This document shows, piece after piece, positions 9,503-57,304 of a stretch of 64,000 nt of DNA. The notes beneath the pieces are model-generated. The model was not told the DNA's origin. It did no database searches and worked only from the letters and a program-made list of their open reading frames with translations. A program made the position numbers and the translations under genes. Positions within the stretch are counted from its first letter, which is position 1. Each line of letters starts with the position of its first letter. The stretch is from Sphingomonadales bacterium (GTDB lineage: Bacteria; Bacteroidota; Bacteroidia; Flavobacteriales_D; Crocinitomicaceae): contig VHBC01000001.1 of the NCBI GenBank assembly GCA_016872115.1, positions 62,001-126,000 on the forward strand. Direction: 5' to 3'.

Positions 9503-9510
9503 TAATTTTG
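9503..9510 (+). promoter_or_regulatory. -7 promoter box four bases before the ppx/gppA start
   Basis: TAATTTTG at 9503-9510, a perfect TAnnTTTG, is followed by four bases and the ATG at 9515. I see no TTG at the standard 17-20 base distance (nearest spacings are 14 and 22). If used, the transcript would start at or beside the ATG. Confidence 0.5.
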
Positions 9511-9514
9511 TCTG

Positions 9515-10393
9515 ATGAAATTTGGTGCTATTGATATTGGAACCAACGCGGCACGCTTGCTCATTGCAAGCGTAGATCGGATTGAAGGTGAACTCCAGCT
9601 TCGTAAGTTAGCTTATTACCGAGTTGCGCTTCGGCTTGGTGAAGATGTGTTTGACAAAGGTAAAATTAGTCCCAAAAAAGCGCAGCATTTTACCCAAACC
9701 ATACAAGCCTTTCAATTACTTGCCCAAACTCATGAAGTTGACTTTCTGCGAGCCGTAGCCACCTCGGCCATGCGCGAAGCAAGCAATGCCAAAAAAATGT
9801 GCAAGCAAATTTTAGCGCAAACTGGTATTCAGATAGATATTATTTCCGGAGACGAAGAAGCACAACTCATATTTAATTCTTTTGAGCTCCTTCAGCTACA
9901 CCAACAACAATTTGTGGTCGTTGATGTGGGGGGTGGAAGCACTGAAATTAGCGTGTTTGAAAATGGACAAAAAGTTGCAGCGCGCTCATTTGAGCTTGGA
10001 ACTTTGCGCATTTTGAAAGGAAAAACCAGTCTTTCGTGTTGGGACGAGTTCTCCTCCTGGATTCAAACACATGTTGCGCTCGAGGAAGCGCATCTCGTTT
10101 TTGGTACCGGCGGAAACATCAATCAGGCGCTCAAAATGAGTGGTTCAAATCAAATGAATATCTTATCTTTAAATGATTTGAAAGTATTAGAACAAAAGCT
10201 ATCGAAAGAAACCATTGAACAACGCTGCGCAAAATACCAACTAAAACCCGATCGTGCAGATGTAATTGTACCTGCACTTCAAATATATATCGCCGCGCTT
10301 CAAGCTCTGGGTCAACAGGAAATCATGGTTCCTAAAATTGGTTTATCCGATGGCGTTATTTATCAGCTTTACCTTCAAAATTCTTCTATCTAA
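9515..10393 (+). CDS. Ppx/GppA family phosphatase (exopolyphosphatase-like)
   Basis: A 292-residue member of the ASKHA-fold Ppx/GppA family, which cleaves polyphosphate or pppGpp. The N-terminal phosphate-binding motif GAIDIGTNAARLLI, VATSAMREA, GDEEAQLIF and the second phosphate loop VVDVGGGSTEIS are clear, with the third loop at FGTGGNINQ. It is the short form without the C-terminal HD domain of E. coli Ppx, as is common in Bacteroidetes. The stop is one base before the hisS ATG. Since rel lies in the same window, a role in pppGpp turnover is possible, but the two are not in one operon. Confidence 0.9.
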   Translation: MKFGAIDIGTNAARLLIASVDRIEGELQLRKLAYYRVALRLGEDVFDKGKISPKKAQHFTQTIQAFQLLAQTHEVDFLRAVATSAMREASNAKKMCKQILAQTGIQIDIISGDEEAQLIFNSFELLQLHQQQFVVVDVGGGSTEISVFENGQKVAARSFELGTLRILKGKTSLSCWDEFSSWIQTHVALEEAHLVFGTGGNINQALKMSGSNQMNILSLNDLKVLEQKLSKETIEQRCAKYQLKPDRADVIVPALQIYIAALQALGQQEIMVPKIGLSDGVIYQLYLQNSSI

Positions 10394-14245: not shown

Positions 14246-16327
14246 TTAATAGGAACCGTGATATCTCCTTAAAAACCATTCCGTCAATAGCATACCAACG
14301 AGAATAAGAAGCAAAGAAAGTAAATCGAGTAGGGGGTCAAAATGATGTGTCTCGGAACGCAATGCGACCAACTCTTTTTGCTGCAGAATGCTTTGAAGTA
14401 ATTTCTTGTAAGCACGCAAAGTAAACACTTTTCCATTGCTTTGCTCGGCAAGTTGATACAATGTGGTGTGTCTAGCCGCTGATTCGAGTTGTTCTAATTG
14501 AATATCATCGACAACAAAAGCACCTGATTTTTGATATTTTTTTTGATTGTGGGTGGTGTAGGCGCGCCAGTAATAACGACCTGCCTTTAGTTGCCCAAGT
14601 TGCTGTTGGTAATAGGCGCCTTTTTTTGAGAAGGTACCCTTTCTCAATTTGTTTTGAGCGTCTTTGAGTTCCCAATAGACAACCGGACTGGTAATTGGTT
14701 TCAAGGCTTCGTTATAAAAGGAGGCGTTGAGCACGCAGCGCTCGAAGGTACTGCGCTTTTTAGGTGCTTGGACCCGCAAGCCGCTACCTTCTTTTTTCAC
14801 CATTAAATAACTTGCTATTTCTGAAGCAAACTGGTCAAATGCTTCGTGACTTTGTTTTTTGAGGTGGGAAATGAGTCGCCAGCGCCAAATACCTTCGCCA
14901 ATAAGGTAGGCTTCACGCTGCTGGTTTTGCTGGTAAAAGCCAATTAGCGGTTGTTCTTTTTGGATATTTCCAACTCTTTGTTTTAGAAGTACTTGCGTGC
15001 CTGATTTTGCCTTAATTTCTCCGAATTTCTTGGTTAATGGCGCAAAAGAAGGGAGCAATTCAAGCCATGCTGTATTTGGCTCATAAATAGAGAATCCGGC
15101 ATTGAAACTGGCTTGAATTTCTTCTTGTTGCTGCCTGAGGTCAACTAGTAAGCCTTTGGCAAGTTTTGCAGCAATTTGCTGTTCGGTTTGGGTGCCAAAG
15201 ATATACCAAACTGGAAGCGCAAATTTTTGAATGGAAGTATACAAATCGTTATTGAACATTTTTCCTGGGTCGTGCCAAACAATGAGGTCGTAGCCAGCTA
15301 ACGTTGTTGCGTCGAGTTGCGCTCCCTGCTTGACGACAACTTCATTGAGTTGATTGCCACTTAAGGCTTGTTGCAAGGCTGAAATGTCTGGGTGTGGGGC
15401 GTAGCTATACAATAAAATTTTACTGCGGTTATCCAATACTTCGATGTAAACCGTTCTTTGGTTATTTTGAAAAGAAAATTCGTCTTTTAGTGGCGAAATT
15501 CGAATCTGATATTCATGAATTCCGGGTTTGAGCGCTTTGTGCTCGAATGTGATTGTATTTCGACTGCTTCTTGAATTTGGTATTTGCAGGGTTTTGCTGT
15601 CTATTTTTTTACCGTCTTCGTATAGCGCTGCCGTAATGGATTTACCTGCAAATCGCTGTGCTTCGATGTCTATTTCTATCGGAAAGGTATTGTTTAGAAA
15701 AGTAAGATCGTTGTAAGCTACATTACTTAAAATGAGGTCTTTTTTGAGTGTGGTGTCACCAACAGCAAGACCGTAAATAGTACAGAGTGGTAGGTGTTCG
15801 GCTGCATACATGGGGTGTTGTCCTGTGTTGTAATTGCCATCAGAAATTAAAATAATGGCACCAAGGTTGGCATTTAGGTATTGATTTGCGGCCGCATCGA
15901 AGGCTACTTGCATATTGGTTTGTTGGGCGCTGAAACCTTTTTTCGGAAAATGTAGTTGTTGGCCAAAGTGCCACGTTTCTAGTTGACATTCTTGACCTAG
16001 TGTGGCCTCAATATTTTTTTGATATGCTGTCAAAGTGCGCTCCAAAAGAGGGCTTTCTTTGTAATTTTTCATAGACGCTGAACGGTCAATGAGGGTCAGG
16101 ATAATCGGTTTTTCGGTTTCAAAATGCGTTTGTTCTAAAAGCAAGCCAAACAGCAAAATTGAAATTAAACCAATACTTAATGTTCTTAGTGTTATTAAAC
16201 TGTATTTAAGACTTTTAGATTTGCTTTTTATCCAATTTTCTTGTCGGTAAAAAAGCCAGCTTATGACCGCTGCAACAGCCAAAATAGGGAGAATCCACCA
16301 CAGTGAAAAAGAAGATAGCAAATGCAT
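14246..16327 (-). CDS. Membrane protein with von Willebrand factor A domain
   Basis: A 693-residue membrane protein. Two N-terminal transmembrane segments (about 9-27 and 43-64) precede a vWA domain whose metal-site motif DRSAS sits at residues 81-85 and continues with GAIILISDGNYNTG. A C-terminal hydrophobic segment (about 668-690) ends the protein. Between lies a long extracytoplasmic region with an Ig-like part and a Rossmann-like piece (LIVWHDPGKMF) reminiscent of class I amidotransferase folds seen in BatA-like proteins. It resembles orphan vWA proteins of Bacteroidetes rather than a complete Bat operon: no MoxR ATPase or BatB/C/D lies beside it. Function is unknown. It is the first gene of the vWA-elaA-M13 run. 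Confidence 0.8.
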   Translation of the reverse strand: MHLLSSFSLWWILPILAVAAVISWLFYRQENWIKSKSKSLKYSLITLRTLSIGLISILLFGLLLEQTHFETEKPIILTLIDRSASMKNYKESPLLERTLTAYQKNIEATLGQECQLETWHFGQQLHFPKKGFSAQQTNMQVAFDAAANQYLNANLGAIILISDGNYNTGQHPMYAAEHLPLCTIYGLAVGDTTLKKDLILSNVAYNDLTFLNNTFPIEIDIEAQRFAGKSITAALYEDGKKIDSKTLQIPNSRSSRNTITFEHKALKPGIHEYQIRISPLKDEFSFQNNQRTVYIEVLDNRSKILLYSYAPHPDISALQQALSGNQLNEVVVKQGAQLDATTLAGYDLIVWHDPGKMFNNDLYTSIQKFALPVWYIFGTQTEQQIAAKLAKGLLVDLRQQQEEIQASFNAGFSIYEPNTAWLELLPSFAPLTKKFGEIKAKSGTQVLLKQRVGNIQKEQPLIGFYQQNQQREAYLIGEGIWRWRLISHLKKQSHEAFDQFASEIASYLMVKKEGSGLRVQAPKKRSTFERCVLNASFYNEALKPITSPVVYWELKDAQNKLRKGTFSKKGAYYQQQLGQLKAGRYYWRAYTTHNQKKYQKSGAFVVDDIQLEQLESAARHTTLYQLAEQSNGKVFTLRAYKKLLQSILQQKELVALRSETHHFDPLLDLLSLLLILVGMLLTEWFLRRYHGSY

Positions 16328-16331
16328 AGCT

Positions 16332-16339
16332 CAAAAGTA
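16332..16339 (-). promoter_or_regulatory. -7 promoter box four bases before the vWA gene start
   Basis: On the minus strand TACTTTTG (16339-16332) is followed by four bases and the ATG at 16327. No TTG at the expected upstream distance is visible. Same geometry as at ppx, the TonB receptor, menD and the men-operon thioesterase. Confidence 0.5.
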
Positions 16340-24204: not shown

Positions 24205-24212
24205 TATTTTTA
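24205..24212 (+). promoter_or_regulatory. Near-consensus -7 box four bases before the S9 peptidase start
   Basis: TATTTTTA at 24205-24212 matches TAnnTTTG except for the last base, and is followed by four bases and the ATG at 24217. The geometry is that of the leaderless candidates, but the imperfect match makes it weaker evidence. Confidence 0.35.
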
Positions 24213-24216
24213 ACAC

Positions 24217-26466
24217 ATGAAATTCACGCTGCTCCTCGCATTCGTTTTTAGTGCCTTCTTATCGATAGAGGCACAATTGCAATTAGATCAAATTATGAAA
24301 GGTCCGGGTTTTGTTGGCGCCTTACCCGAAGCACCCGAGTGGTCCGTAGATGGAAGTACCATTTATTATTGGAAAAAGTTTCCAGACTCTTTGCAAAGAA
24401 CTTACTACAGCTACCATTTTGGGCAGAAAAAAACTACGATTCTGACCAAGCAAGAATGGCAAAATCGTTGGGTGTGGGCCTCATCTGCGGGCCCTTTCAA
24501 TTATTTACGCATTCAAGATGATATGCTTCAACGAAGAGATCCCAAGACCCAACAGGTTAAAACGTATCCTTTGTTATCTAATGCATTTTGGAATTTACAA
24601 TGTTTAAATGACCCTCAAAAAGTAATTTTTCAAGAGGGGCAAAGCTTATGGCAATACGATATGCAATACGGTTTGGCCAAACAATTGATCTCGTATCAAA
24701 AATCAAAAGCCCAGGCGCCTGCCTCAGACCATTTGTCAGCAGCTGAACGCGAATTTTTTGAAAGTATCCGCAAGCAAGAACTACAAAGTGTAAAATTTGA
24801 TATTCCGAAAGTGAAATTTATCGGATTCGAACCGTCAGGTGCCCTTCAAGTGGATCCTACGGCGCGCTATGTATTACTGAAGGATGAAAAACAACCCGAA
24901 GAAACGTCAACGGAAGTCCCACATTTTATTTCGGCGGACGCACATGTTTACAATGAAAAAGCACGTTCGAAGGTACTTAATGAAGAACCATCGCAACGCT
25001 TGTTTTTACATGATTTGCGTTCCGACTCTTTGGTCGAACTCGACTTTTCAGGTCTCAGCCAAATGAATGCTGCAGACCGCGCTTTGATTATACACCCGGC
25101 AATTTTTTCCCAAACCAAGCCCTTGGCTTTGTTTGATATTCGCAGTGCAGACAACAAAGACCGCTGGATTGTAACTTTGGATCTTCAAACGAGTCAAATT
25201 AATGAGCTACAGCACCAACATGATAGCGCATGGATTGGTGGCCCAGGAATATCTTCATGGAATTTTGAGACGGGTACTTTGGGCTGGTTGGTAGATGGTC
25301 AAACCATTTATTATCAATCGGAAGAAACGGGTTATTCACACCTGTATACCTTCGATCTACAAACCAAAATGAAGATGGCACTTACCAGCGGCAATTTTGA
25401 AGTGCATCAAGTGTTTTTAGCTCAAGATAGCAATGCATTTTACGTGACAACAAATATGTATCATCCCGGGACCCGCAGTTTTCATAAGTTGGATCCTAAA
25501 AAGCTAGAAATAATACCAATTCTTTTAGAACTTGGCGCCTACGAAGTACAACTTTCACCAGATGACAAGCAGCTTGCTTACCGTTTCAGTACGAGCACTC
25601 AACCATGGGAAATCTATACAAGTACTGTTAAAAACCCGAAGAGTCAATTTAAAATCACAACTTCAACCACAGAAGCATATCAATCTTACCAATGGCAAAA
25701 ACCAGAAGTAATATCGTTTGAGGCAACCGATGGGATTCCAGTTTACGCACGTTTGTACAAACCGAAAGAAGAAAATAAGAATGACGCTGCTGTTTTATTT
25801 GTACATGGTGCTGGTTATTTACAAAATGCACATTACTATTGGAGTCATTATCATAGAGAGTATATGTTTCATCAAATGCTTGTTGCGCAAGGTTATACTG
25901 TGCTCGATGTCGATTACCGCGCCAGTGAGGGCTACGGCCGCAACTACCGCACGGCAATTTACCGACACATGGGTGGCCGAGATTTACAAGACTTTGTGGA
26001 TGCCAAACAATTTTTAGTAGCGAATTACAAAATAGATTCCAACAGGGTAGGTATTTATGGCGGTTCTTATGGTGGTTTTATTACCCTGATGGCTTTGTTC
26101 ACGGAGCCAGGTACCTTTGCTTGTGGTGCAGCTTTGCGTTCAGTTACCGATTGGGCACATTACAACCACGAGTACACTACGAATATTCTGAATTTACCTG
26201 CCACTGACCCTGAGGCCTACCGTCAAAGTTCACCTATTTATTTTGCAGAAGGATTGCAAGATCCCTTACTTATTTTGCATGGCATGATTGACGACAACGT
26301 TCAGTTTCAGGATGTTGTTAGGCTCAATCAGCGTCTGATTGAACTCGGTAAAAAAGATTGGTGGATGGCACTTTACCCTGTTGAGCGCCATGCCTTTGAA
26401 TACACGAGTTCGTGGACCGACGAATACCGACGTATTTACGAATTATTTGAAACTTATTTAAAATAA
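24217..26466 (+). CDS. S9 family prolyl oligopeptidase / dipeptidyl peptidase, secreted
   Basis: A 749-residue serine peptidase with a signal peptide (residues 1-19, ending SIEAQ). The N-terminal two thirds form the beta-propeller (DPP-IV N-type repeats), the C-terminal third the alpha/beta hydrolase. Catalytic Ser is about 617 in YGGSYGGF, Asp is 692 or 693 in HGMIDDNV, and His is about 725 in VERHAFE, all with the expected spacing for the DPP IV subfamily. It probably removes dipeptides from peptides in the periplasm. It begins a short unit with the GNAT gene after six bases. Confidence 0.94.
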   Translation: MKFTLLLAFVFSAFLSIEAQLQLDQIMKGPGFVGALPEAPEWSVDGSTIYYWKKFPDSLQRTYYSYHFGQKKTTILTKQEWQNRWVWASSAGPFNYLRIQDDMLQRRDPKTQQVKTYPLLSNAFWNLQCLNDPQKVIFQEGQSLWQYDMQYGLAKQLISYQKSKAQAPASDHLSAAEREFFESIRKQELQSVKFDIPKVKFIGFEPSGALQVDPTARYVLLKDEKQPEETSTEVPHFISADAHVYNEKARSKVLNEEPSQRLFLHDLRSDSLVELDFSGLSQMNAADRALIIHPAIFSQTKPLALFDIRSADNKDRWIVTLDLQTSQINELQHQHDSAWIGGPGISSWNFETGTLGWLVDGQTIYYQSEETGYSHLYTFDLQTKMKMALTSGNFEVHQVFLAQDSNAFYVTTNMYHPGTRSFHKLDPKKLEIIPILLELGAYEVQLSPDDKQLAYRFSTSTQPWEIYTSTVKNPKSQFKITTSTTEAYQSYQWQKPEVISFEATDGIPVYARLYKPKEENKNDAAVLFVHGAGYLQNAHYYWSHYHREYMFHQMLVAQGYTVLDVDYRASEGYGRNYRTAIYRHMGGRDLQDFVDAKQFLVANYKIDSNRVGIYGGSYGGFITLMALFTEPGTFACGAALRSVTDWAHYNHEYTTNILNLPATDPEAYRQSSPIYFAEGLQDPLLILHGMIDDNVQFQDVVRLNQRLIELGKKDWWMALYPVERHAFEYTSSWTDEYRRIYELFETYLK

Positions 26467-29633: not shown

Positions 29634-29665
29634 AAGCCACATGGATTCATGTGGCTTTCTTTTTA
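29634..29665 (+). terminator. Rho-independent terminator after the S8 peptidase
   Basis: A perfect ten-base-pair stem (29634-29643 with 29648-29657, AAGCCACATG and its complement) closes a GATT loop and is followed by TCTTTTTAT. The T-rich tail overlaps the -7 box of the next gene. Confidence 0.92.
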
Positions 29666-29671
29666 TCTTTG
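29664..29671 (+). promoter_or_regulatory. -7 promoter box for the TerC gene
   Basis: TATCTTTG, a perfect TAnnTTTG, lies 15 bases before the ATG at 29687 and within the T-tract end of the preceding terminator. A -33 TTG at the proper distance is missing; that position is inside the terminator hairpin. Confidence 0.45.
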
Positions 29672-29686
29672 TCAAAACAATTCTGA

Positions 29687-30706
29687 ATGACTTTTAATCC
29701 TTGGCTAATCGCCATTTTTGCGCTTGTTATTTTCACTATGCTTTTGATTGATTTAGGTGTGGTAAATAAAAAAGCACAGCAAATCACCAACAAAGAAGCG
29801 TTGCGCTGGACACTCGTCTGGATTGGTCTTTCTATGGGTTTCAGTGTTTTGGTTTGGTGGCAAATGGGCTTTGCTAAATTTGCCGAATACCAATCTGCCT
29901 ATTGGATAGAAGAAGCACTCTCCGTAGACAACATGTTTGTCTTTATCTTGGTTTTTAAGTTTTTTAAACTCGAAGGACTACTCCAACACCGCGTACTCTT
30001 TTGGGGCATCATTGGGGCACTTGTATTTAGAGGTATTTTTATTTTCTCCGGAATAGGTTTAATTAAACTTACTTACCTTCCTGAATTTGAACTCTTTGGA
30101 TACCATTTTAGTTTGGATCAAGGGGCACATTCAAAACCAGGATTTTTCTTTAGGCCCAATCTCATACTTACCCTATTTGGTGCTTTCTTGGTTTATGCCG
30201 GGATCAAGTCATTAGCTGATTCCGATGACGACGAACAAAAAGATTTCAATAAAAGTTTGGGAGCACGCCTTTTGCGTAAAGTTTTTCCGGTTACTAAAAA
30301 TTACCACGGCGAGGCGTTTTTTATCAAAAGGGGGCGAAAACGAATGGCAACAAAGCTCTTTTTAGTGCTCATGGTTATCGAAACCACCGATCTCATTTTT
30401 GCTATTGATTCCATTCCAGCCATTTTTGCGATTGCCCCCAACGACCCACTTATACTATATACCTCGAATATTTTTGCGGTACTTGGCCTCAGATCCATGT
30501 ATTTCTTGTTGGCCAACTCTATTCATATGCTTTCTAAACTCAAATACGGCCTGGCTTTCATCCTCAGTTTTATAGGTCTGAAAATGTTGTTAGCTCCTTT
30601 CATTCACATAGAAGCAGTTGTTTCTTTATCAATTGTGGTAGGTGCGCTCGTACTTTCTGTACTGGCCTCTGTAATTTGGAAAGAGGCGCAAACAGCATCA
30701 AATTAA
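29687..30706 (+). CDS. TerC/Alx family integral membrane protein
   Basis: A 339-residue protein with about nine hydrophobic helices. The TerC hallmarks are present: YWIEEALSVDNMFVFILVF with the acidic pair, FWGIIGALVFRGIFIF, and the second half repeat LFLVLMVIETTDLIFAIDSIPAIFAI, LRSMYFLLA. The charged cytoplasmic loop (about 175-225) and length match the Alx type, linked in other bacteria to manganese export and tellurium resistance. It stands alone, converging on edd with a five-base gap. A second, shorter TerC protein is coded at 53063-53815. Confidence 0.93.
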   Translation: MTFNPWLIAIFALVIFTMLLIDLGVVNKKAQQITNKEALRWTLVWIGLSMGFSVLVWWQMGFAKFAEYQSAYWIEEALSVDNMFVFILVFKFFKLEGLLQHRVLFWGIIGALVFRGIFIFSGIGLIKLTYLPEFELFGYHFSLDQGAHSKPGFFFRPNLILTLFGAFLVYAGIKSLADSDDDEQKDFNKSLGARLLRKVFPVTKNYHGEAFFIKRGRKRMATKLFLVLMVIETTDLIFAIDSIPAIFAIAPNDPLILYTSNIFAVLGLRSMYFLLANSIHMLSKLKYGLAFILSFIGLKMLLAPFIHIEAVVSLSIVVGALVLSVLASVIWKEAQTASN

Positions 30707-50016: not shown

Positions 50017-50024
50017 TATTTTTG
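50017..50024 (+). promoter_or_regulatory. -7 promoter box four bases before the TonB receptor start
   Basis: TATTTTTG at 50017-50024 is followed by four bases and the ATG at 50029. No TTG at 17-20 bases upstream. A TATATTTG on the other strand (49992-49985) may serve the TPR gene 19 bases away. Confidence 0.5.
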
Positions 50025-50028
50025 CGCT

Positions 50029-52494
50029 ATGTTTACATACACAAGCGCTCCTTTTTCTCTTCTTGTCATCCTACTTCTTTTATTGAGCCCCACTTTTAAG
50101 GCGCAAAACACCATCAGTATTACAGGTAAAATATTATCCAGTGAGCGCAGCATTCCTTTGGAATATGTCTCTATAAAATTGTTTCTCTTACCCGACTCCA
50201 GCTTTCAAAAAGGAGTATTTTCCAATCTCGAAGGAAAATTTGAATTGATCGCAGCGCCAGGCAAATACTTTATTCAACTTAGTTTGGCACAATACGAGAC
50301 CCAGAATACCGAAAGCTTTGAACTCAAGGCGGGTCAAGTTAATTTTCATTTCGGAACCATTCGCTTGCACATGACCAAAACGCAGGATGTAAAAGACATC
50401 GTCGTGCAGGGTCAAAAAGACATCATGCAAGCAGGTATCGACAAAAAAGTGTACAATGTGGCCGAAGACCTCAATGTCAACGGGGGTACCGCCAACGATA
50501 TTCTCAATCGCTTGCCATCTGTAGAGGTAGATCAAGATGGCGGCGTTTTGCTTAGAGGGCAGGGGAGTGTCACTATTTTGATCGACGGCAGACCCAGCTC
50601 TTTGAGCGGAAGTACTGGCAAAACGCTCCTCGATGCCTTGCCTGCAAATTCTATTGAGCGCGTAGAGATCGTCACAAATCCTTCTGCTAAATACGACCCC
50701 GACGGCAGTTCAGGCATCATCAATATTGTTCTTAAAAAGAATAAACTACTCGGTTTTAACGGAATGGTTTCGACCAACCTGGCTTCCGGAGATCTTTCAG
50801 GCGGAAATGTCGGTGAGGGGACGGCTTCATTAAGCTACCGCAATGGCAATATCAATGTTTTCGGAACTTACACCGCCCGCTACCTCGACGGCTACCGCAA
50901 TAACTACAACGACATTCGTCAAGATTTAAGTTCTGGTACGTTTATTTTAGATCAAAACCGAACTGGAACCGATTTGGACGCGGGTCAAACTTTTCGTTTC
51001 GGAACAGATATCAACCTCAATCCGCGCAATACGATTGGTTTTGTTACAACAGGTTCTTTAACGCGACGCGACCGCACCGGTGACCTATGGAACGCTGAAC
51101 TCAACGAACTAGACGAAATCACAAACTTGTGGCAGCGCACCTCTTTAGACCCGACTAAACGCCGTAACCTGGACCTCAATATCAATTATAAACACGATTT
51201 CAAAGACGAACGCGGCAATTTAATCATCGATTTCAATCAATCTTTAGGTACAGAATGGATTGAAGGGTACTACAAAAATATTTACTATAACCCTGATAGT
51301 TCTTTATCAACTACGCCGATCTTGGATCAACAGCTTTTTAATACCGAAAAAAACAATATTACCACTGCACAAGCCGACCTCACTTACTTGTTTCCTGAAC
51401 TTGGTTTGCGCACTGAGACAGGTTTAAAAGTTATCTTGCGCGACCAACTCGTCGATACTTATTCTCAAACCCTGGATAATTTTTCAGGTGCTTATCAAGC
51501 CGACACCTTGGCTAATTTTCTTTACGGCTACAAAGAACAAATCTTTAGTGCCTATGGCGTGGTTGGAAAACAATTTAATCGCTTTAAAGCACAGGCTGGT
51601 TTGCGTCTAGAGAAAGCCTACCAAATCCCGAACCTGATTTCAGACAGTATCCGGATTGTCAATGACTACTTCAATTTCTTTCCTTCGGCACACCTGCGCT
51701 ACGAATTTAAGCCAAAATCAGAGCTCAGCCTCAGTTACTCTCGACGCATCAAGCGTGCTTCCGCCGGCGAACTCAATCCTTTCACTAATTTTTCGGATCC
51801 ATACAATTTACAGCGCGGAAATCCGTACCTCAACCCCGAATTCATTCATTCGTTTGACTTCGCTTATTCATTGGAAAAAAAGAAATTGACCGTTTCGAGC
51901 GCTTTATTTTACCGTAGTGCCAATGACGTCATATCCAGGTTCAAAGAATTCTATCCGAATAATACCAGTGCGGTTACCTACCTGAATATTTCTCAGACCA
52001 AATCTCTGGGAGCTGAGCTAATCCTTATGATGAAACCCATCAATGGATTGCGCACAACGGTTTCTTACAACGGCAATTATACTTGGTATTTCAGCAACGA
52101 CAGCCTCATTCCGGATCGCCAAGGATTTAACCATAATGTGAAATGGAACACCTCCTATGAATTCTGGAAAAAGACGGCAACAGTTCAGTTGAGTGTCAAT
52201 TACAATGGACCAAGGGTTACTGTTCAAGGTATTGCGCAACGCAAAGGCCCAATAGATCTTGCGTTTGAGAAGAAACTTGCCAACGGTAATTGGACGATAG
52301 GCACAAGGGTCACCGATATTGTCAACCGACAAGGTTTTTATTTTATCGTTGATCGCCCTGGTATATACCAGTCAGGTGAATTCAAATGGCTCACGCGCCG
52401 AGTCTATATTTCTGCTACTTACAAATTTGGAAAGCTGGAGATTTCGAACAAAGGCAAACAAATGAGTGCCGACGGCGGCGGCGGAGAACTCTAG
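50029..52494 (+). CDS. TonB-dependent outer-membrane receptor
   Basis: An 821-residue outer-membrane receptor. Signal peptide 1-26 ends TFKAQ. A CarboxypepD_reg-like domain (about 29-115, ISITGKILSSERSIPLEYVS) is followed by the plug (about 125-220, NGGTANDILNRLPSVEVDQD, RGQGSVTILIDGRPSSLSG, VEIVTNPSAKYDPDGSSGII) and a barrel of the OMP_b-brl_3 type. The C-terminal 30 residues include a Gly-rich, unusual end (SADGGGGEL) instead of the aromatic terminal strand, so the true terminal strand is probably RVYISATYKFG just before. It has no SusD partner here. The substrate is unknown. Confidence 0.93.
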   Translation: MFTYTSAPFSLLVILLLLLSPTFKAQNTISITGKILSSERSIPLEYVSIKLFLLPDSSFQKGVFSNLEGKFELIAAPGKYFIQLSLAQYETQNTESFELKAGQVNFHFGTIRLHMTKTQDVKDIVVQGQKDIMQAGIDKKVYNVAEDLNVNGGTANDILNRLPSVEVDQDGGVLLRGQGSVTILIDGRPSSLSGSTGKTLLDALPANSIERVEIVTNPSAKYDPDGSSGIINIVLKKNKLLGFNGMVSTNLASGDLSGGNVGEGTASLSYRNGNINVFGTYTARYLDGYRNNYNDIRQDLSSGTFILDQNRTGTDLDAGQTFRFGTDINLNPRNTIGFVTTGSLTRRDRTGDLWNAELNELDEITNLWQRTSLDPTKRRNLDLNINYKHDFKDERGNLIIDFNQSLGTEWIEGYYKNIYYNPDSSLSTTPILDQQLFNTEKNNITTAQADLTYLFPELGLRTETGLKVILRDQLVDTYSQTLDNFSGAYQADTLANFLYGYKEQIFSAYGVVGKQFNRFKAQAGLRLEKAYQIPNLISDSIRIVNDYFNFFPSAHLRYEFKPKSELSLSYSRRIKRASAGELNPFTNFSDPYNLQRGNPYLNPEFIHSFDFAYSLEKKKLTVSSALFYRSANDVISRFKEFYPNNTSAVTYLNISQTKSLGAELILMMKPINGLRTTVSYNGNYTWYFSNDSLIPDRQGFNHNVKWNTSYEFWKKTATVQLSVNYNGPRVTVQGIAQRKGPIDLAFEKKLANGNWTIGTRVTDIVNRQGFYFIVDRPGIYQSGEFKWLTRRVYISATYKFGKLEISNKGKQMSADGGGGEL

Positions 52495-53820: not shown

Positions 53821-55488
53821 TTATTTTTTGTTTTTTACGAAATTAAAAAAGTCTTGCAGAACAGCTGCGTTTTGTTCTTGATTGGTAGTTATTTCCAAAA
53901 TTTGTTGGATCGGGTTCATTAAAAAAGCGCTAAGGGTTTTAGACAAGCTCTCTTTTTGATCGAGATAAACCACTTCAAAACCAAATCCTTCTGCAATTTT
54001 ACCTGGAGATTTTTGATGCGTTGCCTCAAAATATTGACCGCGTAACGGTGAGGTAGCCGGACCTGGTATAATCTGAAAAATCCCCCCACCGTGGTTTTGA
54101 ATGATGACGATCTTCAAGTTTTTGGGAAACGGTTGGGTCCAGAGTGCGTTGCTGTCGTAAATAAAAGAGGTGTCGCCGCAAATGAGCAAGTGTGCACTTT
54201 TTGGAGCGCTGAGAGCGGCTCCTACTGCGGTAGATACAGAGCCGTCGATACCGCTAGTGCCGCGGTTGCTGTGATAAATTACACCTGAGATAGGGTCAAA
54301 AAGTTGTGCATAACGAACTACCGAGCTATTGGCTAGGTGAAGTGTGCAAGAACCTTGAATGTTGTCTTGAATGGCGGAAAAGACGTCGTAGTCATAAAGT
54401 TGCGCCGGATTGGTTTCAAATAAGGCTTGTTTATCTTTGGCTATATAGTCAATTGCCTTCCATTTGCCTTGGAAATTATTGTTTTGCAATGAAATGTCCG
54501 CATTCAAAATTGACTCAAAAAAGAAAACGGGATCAATTGGTAGGCATTGAGTGAGGGTCCCGTATGTGTTCATTTGTGGGAAGTCACTAGCCAGACGCCA
54601 ATGTACGGCCAAAGAAGTTTGACGCAAATAAGCCTTGATGCGCTTGGAGACAACAGCACCTCCAAGACTAATTAAAACATTGGGGTGAAAGCTGCTATCT
54701 GCCGGATCGAAACCATTAAGGCTGCGGTCAATACAGGAATTAAAGAGCTCAGACTGTAGATTGGAAGTATTCTCAACCAAAACCACCACATTGCTAAAGG
54801 CAGCAAATTGAGCGAGCACATTTTGAAGTTTGGTATTGGGATCCATTTGCCCCACAAGCACCATGATTTTTTGATCTTGGAGGATTGAAAAATCGGGGAG
54901 AGGAACTTCTTGAGTGCGCGTATTTCTGCGCTCAAATTTGAAACGTTGAATTGGCGCCAACCCGTAAAGCGGTTCGTTTAAACCGACATTCAGATGAATA
55001 GGACCTTTCCAAGGGGCATAGAGCACATCTAAGAAGGATTGAATTTGATAGGTGTTTTGCGCGTTATATTCAAAAGTATCTTCATCAAAACCAAGATATG
55101 CGTGGGCATGGTTTTTAAATACTTCGGCTTGTACAATCGTTTGGCCGTCGCCCTGATTGATCCATTTGGCAGGGCGGTCTGCAGTTAGCGCCAAAAGTGG
55201 AATATTTCGGTAATACGCCTCGGCAAGTGCTGGATAGTAATTGAGGCAGGCAGAGCCAGAAGTACAACAGATAGCCACTGGCGTTTGGCTTTCTTGTGCC
55301 CATCCAAGAGCAATAAATGCGGCTGCGCGCTCGTCGTGGACTACTAAAGTTTGTATTTCTGGATGCGCATCAAAAGCGATAGCAAAAGAGGCGTTCCGAG
55401 AACCTGGCGAAAGCACAACTTTTAGAATATTGTGCTCAGCCATTGCGGCTACCACAAATTGCACCAAAAGTTTATCTGAGCTTTGCAT
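53821..55488 (-). CDS. menD: 2-succinyl-5-enolpyruvyl-6-hydroxy-3-cyclohexene-1-carboxylate synthase
   Basis: ThDP enzyme that joins isochorismate and 2-oxoglutarate in menaquinone synthesis. The 555-residue protein has the N-terminal Glu-bearing PYR domain (KVVLSPGSRNASFAIAF, VVHDERAAAFIALGWAQES, CTSGSACLNYYPALAEAYY), and the ThDP-binding GDTSFIYDSNALW with the following NHGGGIFQIIPG. The -33 part of its own promoter lies inside the end of menF, and its ATG is four bases after the -7 box, so it may be made from a leaderless transcript as well as from the operon. Confidence 0.96.
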   Translation of the reverse strand: MQSSDKLLVQFVVAAMAEHNILKVVLSPGSRNASFAIAFDAHPEIQTLVVHDERAAAFIALGWAQESQTPVAICCTSGSACLNYYPALAEAYYRNIPLLALTADRPAKWINQGDGQTIVQAEVFKNHAHAYLGFDEDTFEYNAQNTYQIQSFLDVLYAPWKGPIHLNVGLNEPLYGLAPIQRFKFERRNTRTQEVPLPDFSILQDQKIMVLVGQMDPNTKLQNVLAQFAAFSNVVVLVENTSNLQSELFNSCIDRSLNGFDPADSSFHPNVLISLGGAVVSKRIKAYLRQTSLAVHWRLASDFPQMNTYGTLTQCLPIDPVFFFESILNADISLQNNNFQGKWKAIDYIAKDKQALFETNPAQLYDYDVFSAIQDNIQGSCTLHLANSSVVRYAQLFDPISGVIYHSNRGTSGIDGSVSTAVGAALSAPKSAHLLICGDTSFIYDSNALWTQPFPKNLKIVIIQNHGGGIFQIIPGPATSPLRGQYFEATHQKSPGKIAEGFGFEVVYLDQKESLSKTLSAFLMNPIQQILEITTNQEQNAAVLQDFFNFVKNKK

Positions 55489-55492
55489 GGCG

Positions 55493-55522
55493 CAAATTTA
55501 CGCCAAATCAGAGCAGGCGCAA
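55493..55522 (-). promoter_or_regulatory. Internal promoter of menD, -7 box four bases before the ATG
   Basis: On the minus strand TTG (55522-55520), a 19-base spacer, then TAAATTTG (55500-55493), a full consensus match. Four bases separate the box from the ATG at 55488. The TTG lies inside the menF coding region. The complete two-part promoter makes this the best of the leaderless candidates. Confidence 0.7.
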
Positions 55523-56441: not shown

Positions 56442-56867
56442 CTATTCGGCTTTAGGTAAAATCATGACGGTGTGTTTGCCATGGCAAATAAGACGTTGGC
56501 TGCTGGCTTCGCGCACTTCAATGCTCCAAAGATGGGTAGTCCTACCAGCATGGATCAAACGCGCAGTGGCATGTACTTCACCTTCTTTTACAGCACCGAC
56601 ATGATTGGCCGAGATATCTAATCCGACTGCGTTTTGCATTAGAGGATCAATGAGTAAAACAGATCCCAAAGAACCAACGGTCTCCATGAGTGCAGCGCTA
56701 GCACCACCGTGTAACAAGCCCATTGGCTGTCTGGTGCGCTCATTGACTGGCATACTGGCCTTCACAAACTGATCACCAATTTCAAGGTATTGAATACCTA
56801 AGGCCTCCATAAGCGTTCCTTGGTTAAGTGCATTGAGTTGATCGAGCGGAACTTGCTTTAATTTCAT
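56442..56867 (-). CDS. Hotdog-fold PaaI-type thioesterase, candidate DHNA-CoA thioesterase
   Basis: A 141-residue single-domain hotdog thioesterase with the catalytic loop TRQPMGLLHGGASAALMETV and NAVGLDISANHVGAVKEG, which is the pattern of the YbgC/PaaI group that includes the YdiI/MenI enzymes. Being first in the operon before menF and menD, it likely hydrolyses 1,4-dihydroxy-2-naphthoyl-CoA, the step whose gene was missing from many menaquinone pathways. This assignment is from gene context, not from residues unique to MenI. Confidence 0.82.
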   Translation of the reverse strand: MKLKQVPLDQLNALNQGTLMEALGIQYLEIGDQFVKASMPVNERTRQPMGLLHGGASAALMETVGSLGSVLLIDPLMQNAVGLDISANHVGAVKEGEVHATARLIHAGRTTHLWSIEVREASSQRLICHGKHTVMILPKAE

Positions 56868-56871
56868 GTTG

Positions 56872-56879
56872 CAAATATA
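56872..56879 (-). promoter_or_regulatory. -7 promoter box four bases before the men-operon thioesterase start
   Basis: On the minus strand TATATTTG (56879-56872) is followed by four bases and the ATG at 56867. No TTG at the usual upstream spacing. This would be the start of the thioesterase-menF-menD run. Confidence 0.5.
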
Positions 56880-57182: not shown

Positions 57183-57212
57183 TTGCAGTAACCCGAAGTT
57201 TTAGTACTTTTG
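57183..57212 (+). promoter_or_regulatory. Promoter of tRNA-Ser
   Basis: TTG (57183-57185), a 19-base spacer, then TACTTTTG (57205-57212), a full consensus match. Four bases separate the box from the mature 5' end of the tRNA at 57217. Since the transcript must include base 57217, its start is at most five bases after the box. Confidence 0.8.
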
Positions 57213-57216
57213 CCTC

Positions 57217-57304
57217 GGAAAGTTGGCAGAGTGGTCGATTGCGGCGGTCTTGAAAACCGTTGAACCGAGAGGTTCCGGGGGTTCGAATCCCTCACTTTCC
57301 GCCA
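57217..57304 (+). tRNA. tRNA-Ser, anticodon UGA
   Basis: Class II tRNA of 88 bases including an encoded CCA (57302-57304). The seven-pair acceptor stem is GGAAAGT (57217-57223) with ACTTTCC (57294-57300). The anticodon loop 57249-57255 has TGA at 57251-57253. A long variable arm (GAACC-GAGA-GGTTC) identifies Ser, and the T loop is TTCGAAT. Own promoter upstream and terminator downstream. Confidence 0.96.

Follow-up and report, generated by a model that had tools for sequence, protein, structure and literature searches.

The window analysed here, a 64,000-nt stretch of DNA, is part of a 2.22-Mb genome in 65 contigs. On its reverse strand lies menD (53821 to 55488; 555 amino acids, with thiamine pyrophosphate enzyme domains), whose start region (55486 to 55500) contains a perfect copy of TAnnTTTG, the -7 element of the Bacteroidota sigma-A promoter. 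The box, TAAATTTG, occupies 55500-55493 and is separated from the ATG at 55488-55486 by the 4-nt spacer CGCC. Because the TAA in this box is an in-frame stop, a menD start further upstream is impossible. A 4HBT-family thioesterase of 141 amino acids that adjoins the men genes (56442 to 56867, reverse strand) has the same layout at its start (56865 to 56879), with box TATATTTG at 56879-56872, spacer CAAC and ATG at 56867-56865.

Three further genes begin in this way. A Ppx/GppA phosphatase of 292 amino acids (9515 to 10393, forward strand; start region 9503 to 9517) has box TAATTTTG at 9503-9510, spacer TCTG and ATG at 9515-9517. A TonB-dependent receptor on the forward strand, in which receptor domains were found, has box TATTTTTG at 50017-50024, spacer CGCT and ATG at 50029-50031 (start region 50017 to 50031). 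A 693-aa gene on the reverse strand (14246 to 16327; start region 16325 to 16339) has box TACTTTTG at 16339-16332 and spacer AGCT before the ATG that opens at 16327. The original prediction had named these five genes as having perfect boxes exactly four bases before the ATG, and both the coordinates and the spacing were correct in every case. Its description of the 693-aa gene as a vWA gene was not borne out: no vWA match was found in Pfam at E 0.001, and the sole Pfam match is to an Ig-like domain family, below the cut-off of that family. With two simple base models, finding at least 5 such boxes among the 49 genes of the window has a probability between 2e-11 and 2e-10, uncorrected for having chosen the distance. 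The genome-wide test below is the better one.

Two further features had been placed alongside the five. The S9 peptidase on the forward strand (start region 24205 to 24219; S9 domain found) has a variant box, TATTTTTA, at 24205-24212, followed by spacer ACAC and the ATG at 24217-24219; as predicted, it is a 7-of-8 match at distance 4, the mismatch being the final A. As a group, boxes with one mismatch show no peak at distance 4, so that a 7-of-8 match is no evidence unless the last G is replaced by A. The genome sample has 12 copies of TAnnTTTA at distance 4, whereas distances 6-12 average 2.1, which makes the S9 peptidase box a plausible variant. The second feature is the -7 box of tRNA-Ser(UGA) (57205 to 57212, forward strand), which lies 4 nt before the mature 5' end at 57217 as located by ARAGORN, in agreement with the predicted gap. 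The remaining boxed genes of the window have distances of 15, 15, 17, 18, 20, 20, 22, 28 and 52, and the suggestion of two classes is right; the gene with a box at 22 has a second box at 2. A typical member of the more distant class is found at 29664 to 29689 on the forward strand, where box TATCTTTG (29664-29671) precedes the ATG at 29687 by 15 nt.

We measured the distance from box to start codon in 860 kb of the same genome (39%, window included), divided into two samples, A and B. Genes were called with a home-made program that relies on codon usage, is blind to upstream signals and accepts ATG starts only. Among 395 genes with an upstream gap of at least 20 nt, 34 have a box at distance 4 (18 of 200 in sample A and 16 of 195 in sample B). 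The adjacent distances are far less populated, with 5 boxes in A and 2 in B at distance 3, and 2 in A and 3 in B at distance 5. Distances 6-12 are scarce (5 boxes in A and 10 in B), and a second, broad peak follows at 13-21 (38 and 27 boxes, 65 together). Over distances 0-60 there are 86 boxes in A and 84 in B, and 46 of these 170 fall at 3-5. The genome-wide peak at four that had been foreseen is thus sharp and was reproduced in two separate samples. The interval between the peaks is not empty, however: 15 boxes lie at 6-12, and sample B alone has 4 at distance 7. This counts against a leaderless reading, as do the boxes at 5 in 4 of the 241 genes with a smaller upstream gap.

A count made without the gene caller agrees. 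Of 4,584 ATGs that open at least 100 codons, 42 are boxed at distance 4 and 16 at distance 5, whereas each distance from 6 to 12 has 4.7 on average (Poisson 1.4e-25 for the count at 4). For the whole genome there are 121 pattern matches at distance 4, 37 at distance 10 and 49 at distance 9. We dropped distance 9 as a genome-wide control because it falls in another codon phase and exceeds distance 4 in families such as f23, and adopted distance 10, which shares the codon phase of 4. In 12 genomes of the same genus, matches at distance 4 before ATG number 1,493, compared with 464 for a reversed-pattern control.

The signal at distance 4 belongs mainly to ATG. None of 4,768 TTG starts is boxed at this distance, and CTG, ATT, ATA, ATC and ACG have 0 or 1 boxed instances each in sample A. 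GTG is weakly raised, which counts against the reading: 6 of 2,476 GTG starts are boxed, compared with a mean of 1.0 at 6-12, and matches at 4 exceed the control by 36 to 14 in this genome and by 943 to 835 over 31 genomes of the genus. ATG is nevertheless preferred over both GTG and TTG. A preference for AUG is typical of leaderless mRNAs, although mycobacteria use GUG too.

Where RNA would begin can be judged from mapped and predicted starts in Flavobacterium. For F. johnsoniae, the start predicted from RNA-seq follows the box by 4 or 5 nt in 241 of 434 candidates, which places the box at -12 to -5 (PMC6847099), and mapped starts in F. psychrophilum give the same position, -12 to -5 (PMC9723704). 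Given these distances, a box 4 bases before an ATG should place the RNA start on or adjoining the A of the ATG. The tRNA-Ser promoter sets an upper bound of its own: since the RNA start cannot lie beyond the mature 5' end, it is at most 5 bases after the box. We infer that the RNA begins on the A of the ATG or one base to either side, which for menD means 55488 (+/-1). The boxed genes may additionally be read from upstream promoters; menD stands behind two genes on the same strand.

We therefore favor, with a probability of roughly 0.86, a leaderless promoter class with the box at 3-5 and a peak at 4, beside a leadered class with the box at 13 or more. The leaderless reading advanced in the original prediction is supported by the peak at 4, the bias towards ATG, the conservation of the menD and thioesterase layouts and the Flavobacterium start sites; a promoter element at a fixed distance that would put +1 on the start codon is present in both samples. 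In the mechanism we propose, TAnnTTTG acts as the -7 element of the primary sigma factor of Bacteroidota, and polymerase carrying this factor would begin RNA about 4-5 nt after the box. A box ending 4 bases before an ATG would then make the A of the ATG, or its direct neighbor, the first base of the RNA. An mRNA without a 5' leader would be translated by direct recognition of its 5'-terminal AUG with initiator tRNA; in leaderless translation the 5' AUG is described as being recognised by ribosome-bound initiator tRNA with IF2 (PMC10783764). In the leadered layout, a box at 13 or more would yield a leader of about 9 nt or longer that is A-rich around -9 to -12, and leaders of about 2-8 nt would be scarce.

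The alternative that survives best is that the promoters are real and the RNA starts 1-3 nt before the ATG, giving very short leaders that are not strictly leaderless. The starts in F. johnsoniae lie 4 or 5 nt after the box and not at a single value (PMC6847099), and distances 3 and 5 do occur (7 and 5 boxes in the 395 genes, respectively, and also at 5 in the caller-free count). On the other hand, the peak lies exactly at 4 and mainly before ATG, the pattern expected if a 5'-terminal AUG is selected for. A pyrimidine occupies -1 in 31 of 37 leaderless genes, which fits a start on the following A, although the point is weak because leadered genes favor a pyrimidine there too (71% of 48). We consider very short leaders unlikely.

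Conservation of the layout was observed for three genes. Six public assemblies, titled Crocinitomicaceae, Cryomorphaceae or Flavobacteriales bacterium, have a menD with 69-74% identity to that of the window, and we accordingly regard the source as Crocinitomicaceae-like, within the Flavobacteriales. For both menD and the thioesterase the box and its spacing are kept in all six of these relatives while the spacer letters differ. In these conserved cases the spacing has been held while spacer letters and proteins diverged. The six are not all independent, since two of them (L051 and L052) share their menD upstream letters, and they probably overlap with the set of genomes from the same genus. 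In that set, menD is present in 27 of 31 genomes (own genome included); 15 of the 27 loci have the exact box at distance 4 and 19 have the relaxed form TAnnTT[TC][GA] there, with 4 of the remaining loci at distance 6, 1 at distance 3 and 3 without a box. The thioesterase gives nearly the same picture: of 23 loci whose start could be called, own genome among them, 15 have the exact box at 4 and 19 the relaxed box, while 4 loci have distance 10. One further locus has no callable start.

The phosphatase gene varies more. Over 30 same-genus loci in 29 genomes, own included, ppx has distance 4 in 9 (one of them before GTG), distance 5 in 10 and distance 6 in 2; there is one locus each at 7, 8, 9, 11, 13 and 15, and 3 have no box. 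This span, from 4 to 15 with a third of the loci at 5, counts against the leaderless reading and lends some weight to short leaders; distance 5 could correspond to leaders of 1 nt. The 693-aa gene has the exact box at 4 in the one other genome of the genus that was examined (G041). Other genera of the family contributed 27 loci, one of them a partial match, and none shows this layout. Family-wide, the exact box at 4 is found in only 2 of 26 ppx loci and 2 of 29 loci of the 693-aa gene, each time this genome and G041, which again counts against the reading. The layout is thus constrained among nearer relatives, while further out individual genes gain and lose it.

In several orthologues of the 693-aa gene from the family (L168-L184), TAnnTTCG replaces TAnnTTTG upstream, and in L175 it is at distance 4 from the ATG. 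As a leaderless box in the window's own genome this variant was rejected, because 11 of the 13 copies within 30 nt of starts in sample A lie at 14-27. Two other genomes, G372 and G115, have 3 copies each at distances 3-5. The orthologues and the 13 copies in sample A hint that C is a tolerated letter in the box.

A second alternative is that the box is a translation signal, a ribosome-binding element, and not a promoter. Its fixed distance from start codons is what one would expect of a ribosome site. However, the identical box also occurs at 13-30 nt and before tRNA-Ser, which is not translated, and it matches the sigma consensus of the phylum (PMC9723704, PMC6847099, PMC7366714). It is also rare in closely packed genes, which need translation signals equally: where the upstream gap is below 20 nt, only 3 of 241 genes have a box at distance 4, compared with the 34 of 395 with a larger gap (Fisher p 4e-5), and all 3 have a gap of 19 nt, room enough for the box. 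We rejected this alternative as very improbable.

The leadered class has an upstream feature of its own. In sample A, 48 of its genes are A-rich at -9 to -12, A reaching 69% at -11, and an A-rich stretch upstream of the ATG is known for the phylum. In the leaderless class the promoter box occupies the place of this stretch. The scarcity of distances 6-12 would follow if a leader must either hold the A-rich site or be absent. The 3' end of the 16S rRNA retains the anti-Shine-Dalgarno letters, CCTCCTTT. The first 40 nt have a mean predicted folding energy of -3.8 kcal/mol in 37 leaderless genes and -2.5 kcal/mol in 88 leadered genes; for an internal stretch of the leaderless genes the mean is -5.3 kcal/mol. 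The -33 TTTG element gave no clear signal in 20 leaderless or 48 leadered starts, and it is hardly evident in F. johnsoniae either (PMC6847099).

Another alternative accepts the promoter but puts the true start codon further downstream, behind a normal leader; in its favor, our home-made caller always takes an ATG. Yet an in-frame ATG at codons 4-7, which would restore a leader, is present in only 1 of the 37 genes with a box at distance 4. In 21 of the 37 the box begins with TAA or TAG, an in-frame stop 12 bases upstream, and in 7 an in-frame ATG, GTG or TTG occurs upstream before any stop is reached. The ATG after the box was found to be the true N terminus for riboflavin synthase, TrmD and MnmA (three of 37 genes outside the men locus) and for menD. 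Riboflavin synthase (L263, distance-4 ATG) aligns residue 1 to residue 1 with 7 of the 8 matched sequences of solved structures, 6 of them named riboflavin synthase and 1 lumazine protein; the eighth, which has another name, aligns at its own residue 185. For TrmD (L032), alignments begin at residue 1 in 9 of 27 matches and at residue 2 in 10, and for MnmA (L031) at residue 2 or 3 in 4 of 4. The menD protein aligns from residue 1 with all six named relatives, and most of the 19 matches to the ppx protein of the window begin at residue 1, 2 or 3. With the start codons of two well-known proteins, riboflavin synthase and TrmD, matching solved proteins from residue 1 or 2, downstream true starts were likewise rejected as very improbable.

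Finally, chance combined with selective reading might be suspected, since AT-rich upstream DNA yields such matches and most boxes are indeed background (98 in the window against 70 expected from shuffles), but the histogram of distances in two samples contradicts it, and no comparable peak emerges when the letter arrangement, start codon, frame length or distance is varied as a control. It was rejected as the least probable explanation of all. Given these box numbers, a box by itself means little, and it is the fixed position before start codons that counts. Two of these controls remain to be given. In the first 461 kb, counted without the caller, 29 other arrangements of the box letters reach at most 4 instances at distance 4, compared with 23 for TAnnTTTG. 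Among ATGs that open fewer than 20 codons, 5 of 14,609 are boxed at this distance.

A leaderless layout is considered uncommon in Bacteroidota, which are usually treated as leadered and without use of Shine-Dalgarno sequences. Leaderless mRNAs make up 5.5% in F. psychrophilum (PMC9723704), and in B. thetaiotaomicron about 3.7% of 5' UTRs are shorter than 10 nt (PMC7366714). Both have, as here, the same -7 box and a minority of mRNAs that start at or close to the ATG. Their percentages refer to mapped ends and are not directly comparable with our count of boxes (46 of the 170 that lie within 60 nt of a start); by the same measure as ours, a genome of the same class (G154) has 3 of 41, so the leaderless share appears to be larger here. 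What we see is best read as an enriched instance of a familiar type, leaderless mRNAs with TAnnTTTG having already been described as a minority in the phylum.

Other systems resemble this one in part. In Actinobacteria and Deinococcus-Thermus, many genes have a promoter element roughly one turn upstream of their start codon (PMC3160421), as here; unlike in those groups, the box here is that of another sigma consensus, TAnnTTTG, GTG is weakly used, and the phylum makes little use of Shine-Dalgarno sequences. The survey of 953 bacterial genomes that described them reported leaderless genes in 1 of 37 Bacteroidetes/Chlorobi genomes, using a Pribnow-like matrix, and its authors concede that it would miss non-Pribnow promoters (PMC3160421). 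The non-Shine-Dalgarno initiation of F. johnsoniae shares with the leadered class here the A-rich stretch upstream of the ATG, and with this genome the retained anti-Shine-Dalgarno letters of the 16S rRNA, but F. johnsoniae is described as mostly leadered, with a leader of more than 10 nt in 87% of predicted transcripts (PMC6847099). A survey of 260 genomes noted base-composition hints in Bacteroidetes that might reflect leaderless mRNA or protein S1 (PMC5397173), and the FCB group has been described by AT-rich ribosome sites in gene-start prediction (PMC9581028). Leaderless mRNA is mentioned for some Flavobacteriia without the CCUCC letters (PMC10783764); the genome studied here, unlike those, keeps them. 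We found no paper in the open-licence literature on leaderless mRNA in Crocinitomicaceae, Fluviicola or Cryomorphaceae.

A wider interpretation, to which we give even odds, is that two start systems exist side by side in one lineage of Bacteroidota. One would be leaderless, with sigma-A boxes placed exactly on the ATG in about a quarter of box-driven genes; the other would be leadered and A-rich, and leaders of 2-8 nt would be selected against. Gain and loss between genera would then represent a fast-evolving switch, possibly one by which chosen genes are translated differently under stress. If about a quarter of recognisable promoters are indeed placed on start codons, a leaderless branch would be needed in gene-start prediction, in expression design and in thinking about how these ribosomes initiate. 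The distance from box to ATG would in that case offer a cheap readout, from sequence only, for uncultured Bacteroidota.

Pattern counts were made in 296 genomes of the phylum and in 120 of the order. We tabulated the counts at 4 and 10 for 133 of the 296, comprising every genome of the same class, two large groups, f23 and f16, and family f24, which was selected for being high. The counts at 4 and 10 are 121 and 37 in this genome and 128 and 34 in G041, and 72 of 73 genomes of the same class have more matches at 4 than at 10. Family ratios within the class range from 1.0 for f11 (2 genomes), through 1.6 for f6 (29 genomes), up to 3.5 for the window's own family (2 genomes). There is little excess at 4 in f23 (ratio 1.2, 35 genomes) or f16 (1.1, 16 genomes). 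The highest tabulated ratio, 4.6, belongs to f24, a family of another class (360 against 79 over 9 genomes, namely G144, G113, G136, G232 and five others), and the leaderless class may be prominent there too.

Eight other genomes were profiled for distance over 163-200 kb each. The numbers of boxes at 3-5 and 13-60, respectively, are 7 and 11 in G372, 6 and 8 in G144, 8 and 18 in G115, 3 and 12 in both G338 and G178, 3 and 38 in G154, 1 and 11 in G041, and 1 and 13 in G023. The commonest distance among 0-12 is 4 in the first six of these, although the numbers are small. The 163-kb stretch of G041 (L097-L105, contig C1) counts against the reading, with distance 4 in 1 of 69 genes that have a free upstream gap; it contains 6 pattern matches, which is low compared with 128 genome-wide.

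The tRNA-Ser gene, found in 21 of 40 genomes of the family, deserves separate mention. The tRNA-Ser(UGA) of another genus (L131 of G338) has an equal four-base gap between box and mature 5' end. Among eight tRNAs in three genomes, two are boxed at 4, both of them tRNA-Ser, three have a box at 14-35 and three have no box within 70 nt. In two genera, then, tRNA-Ser(UGA) is apparently transcribed from at or adjoining its own mature 5' end (57205-57217 in the window), and RNase P may find little or nothing to trim from the 5' end of its precursor.
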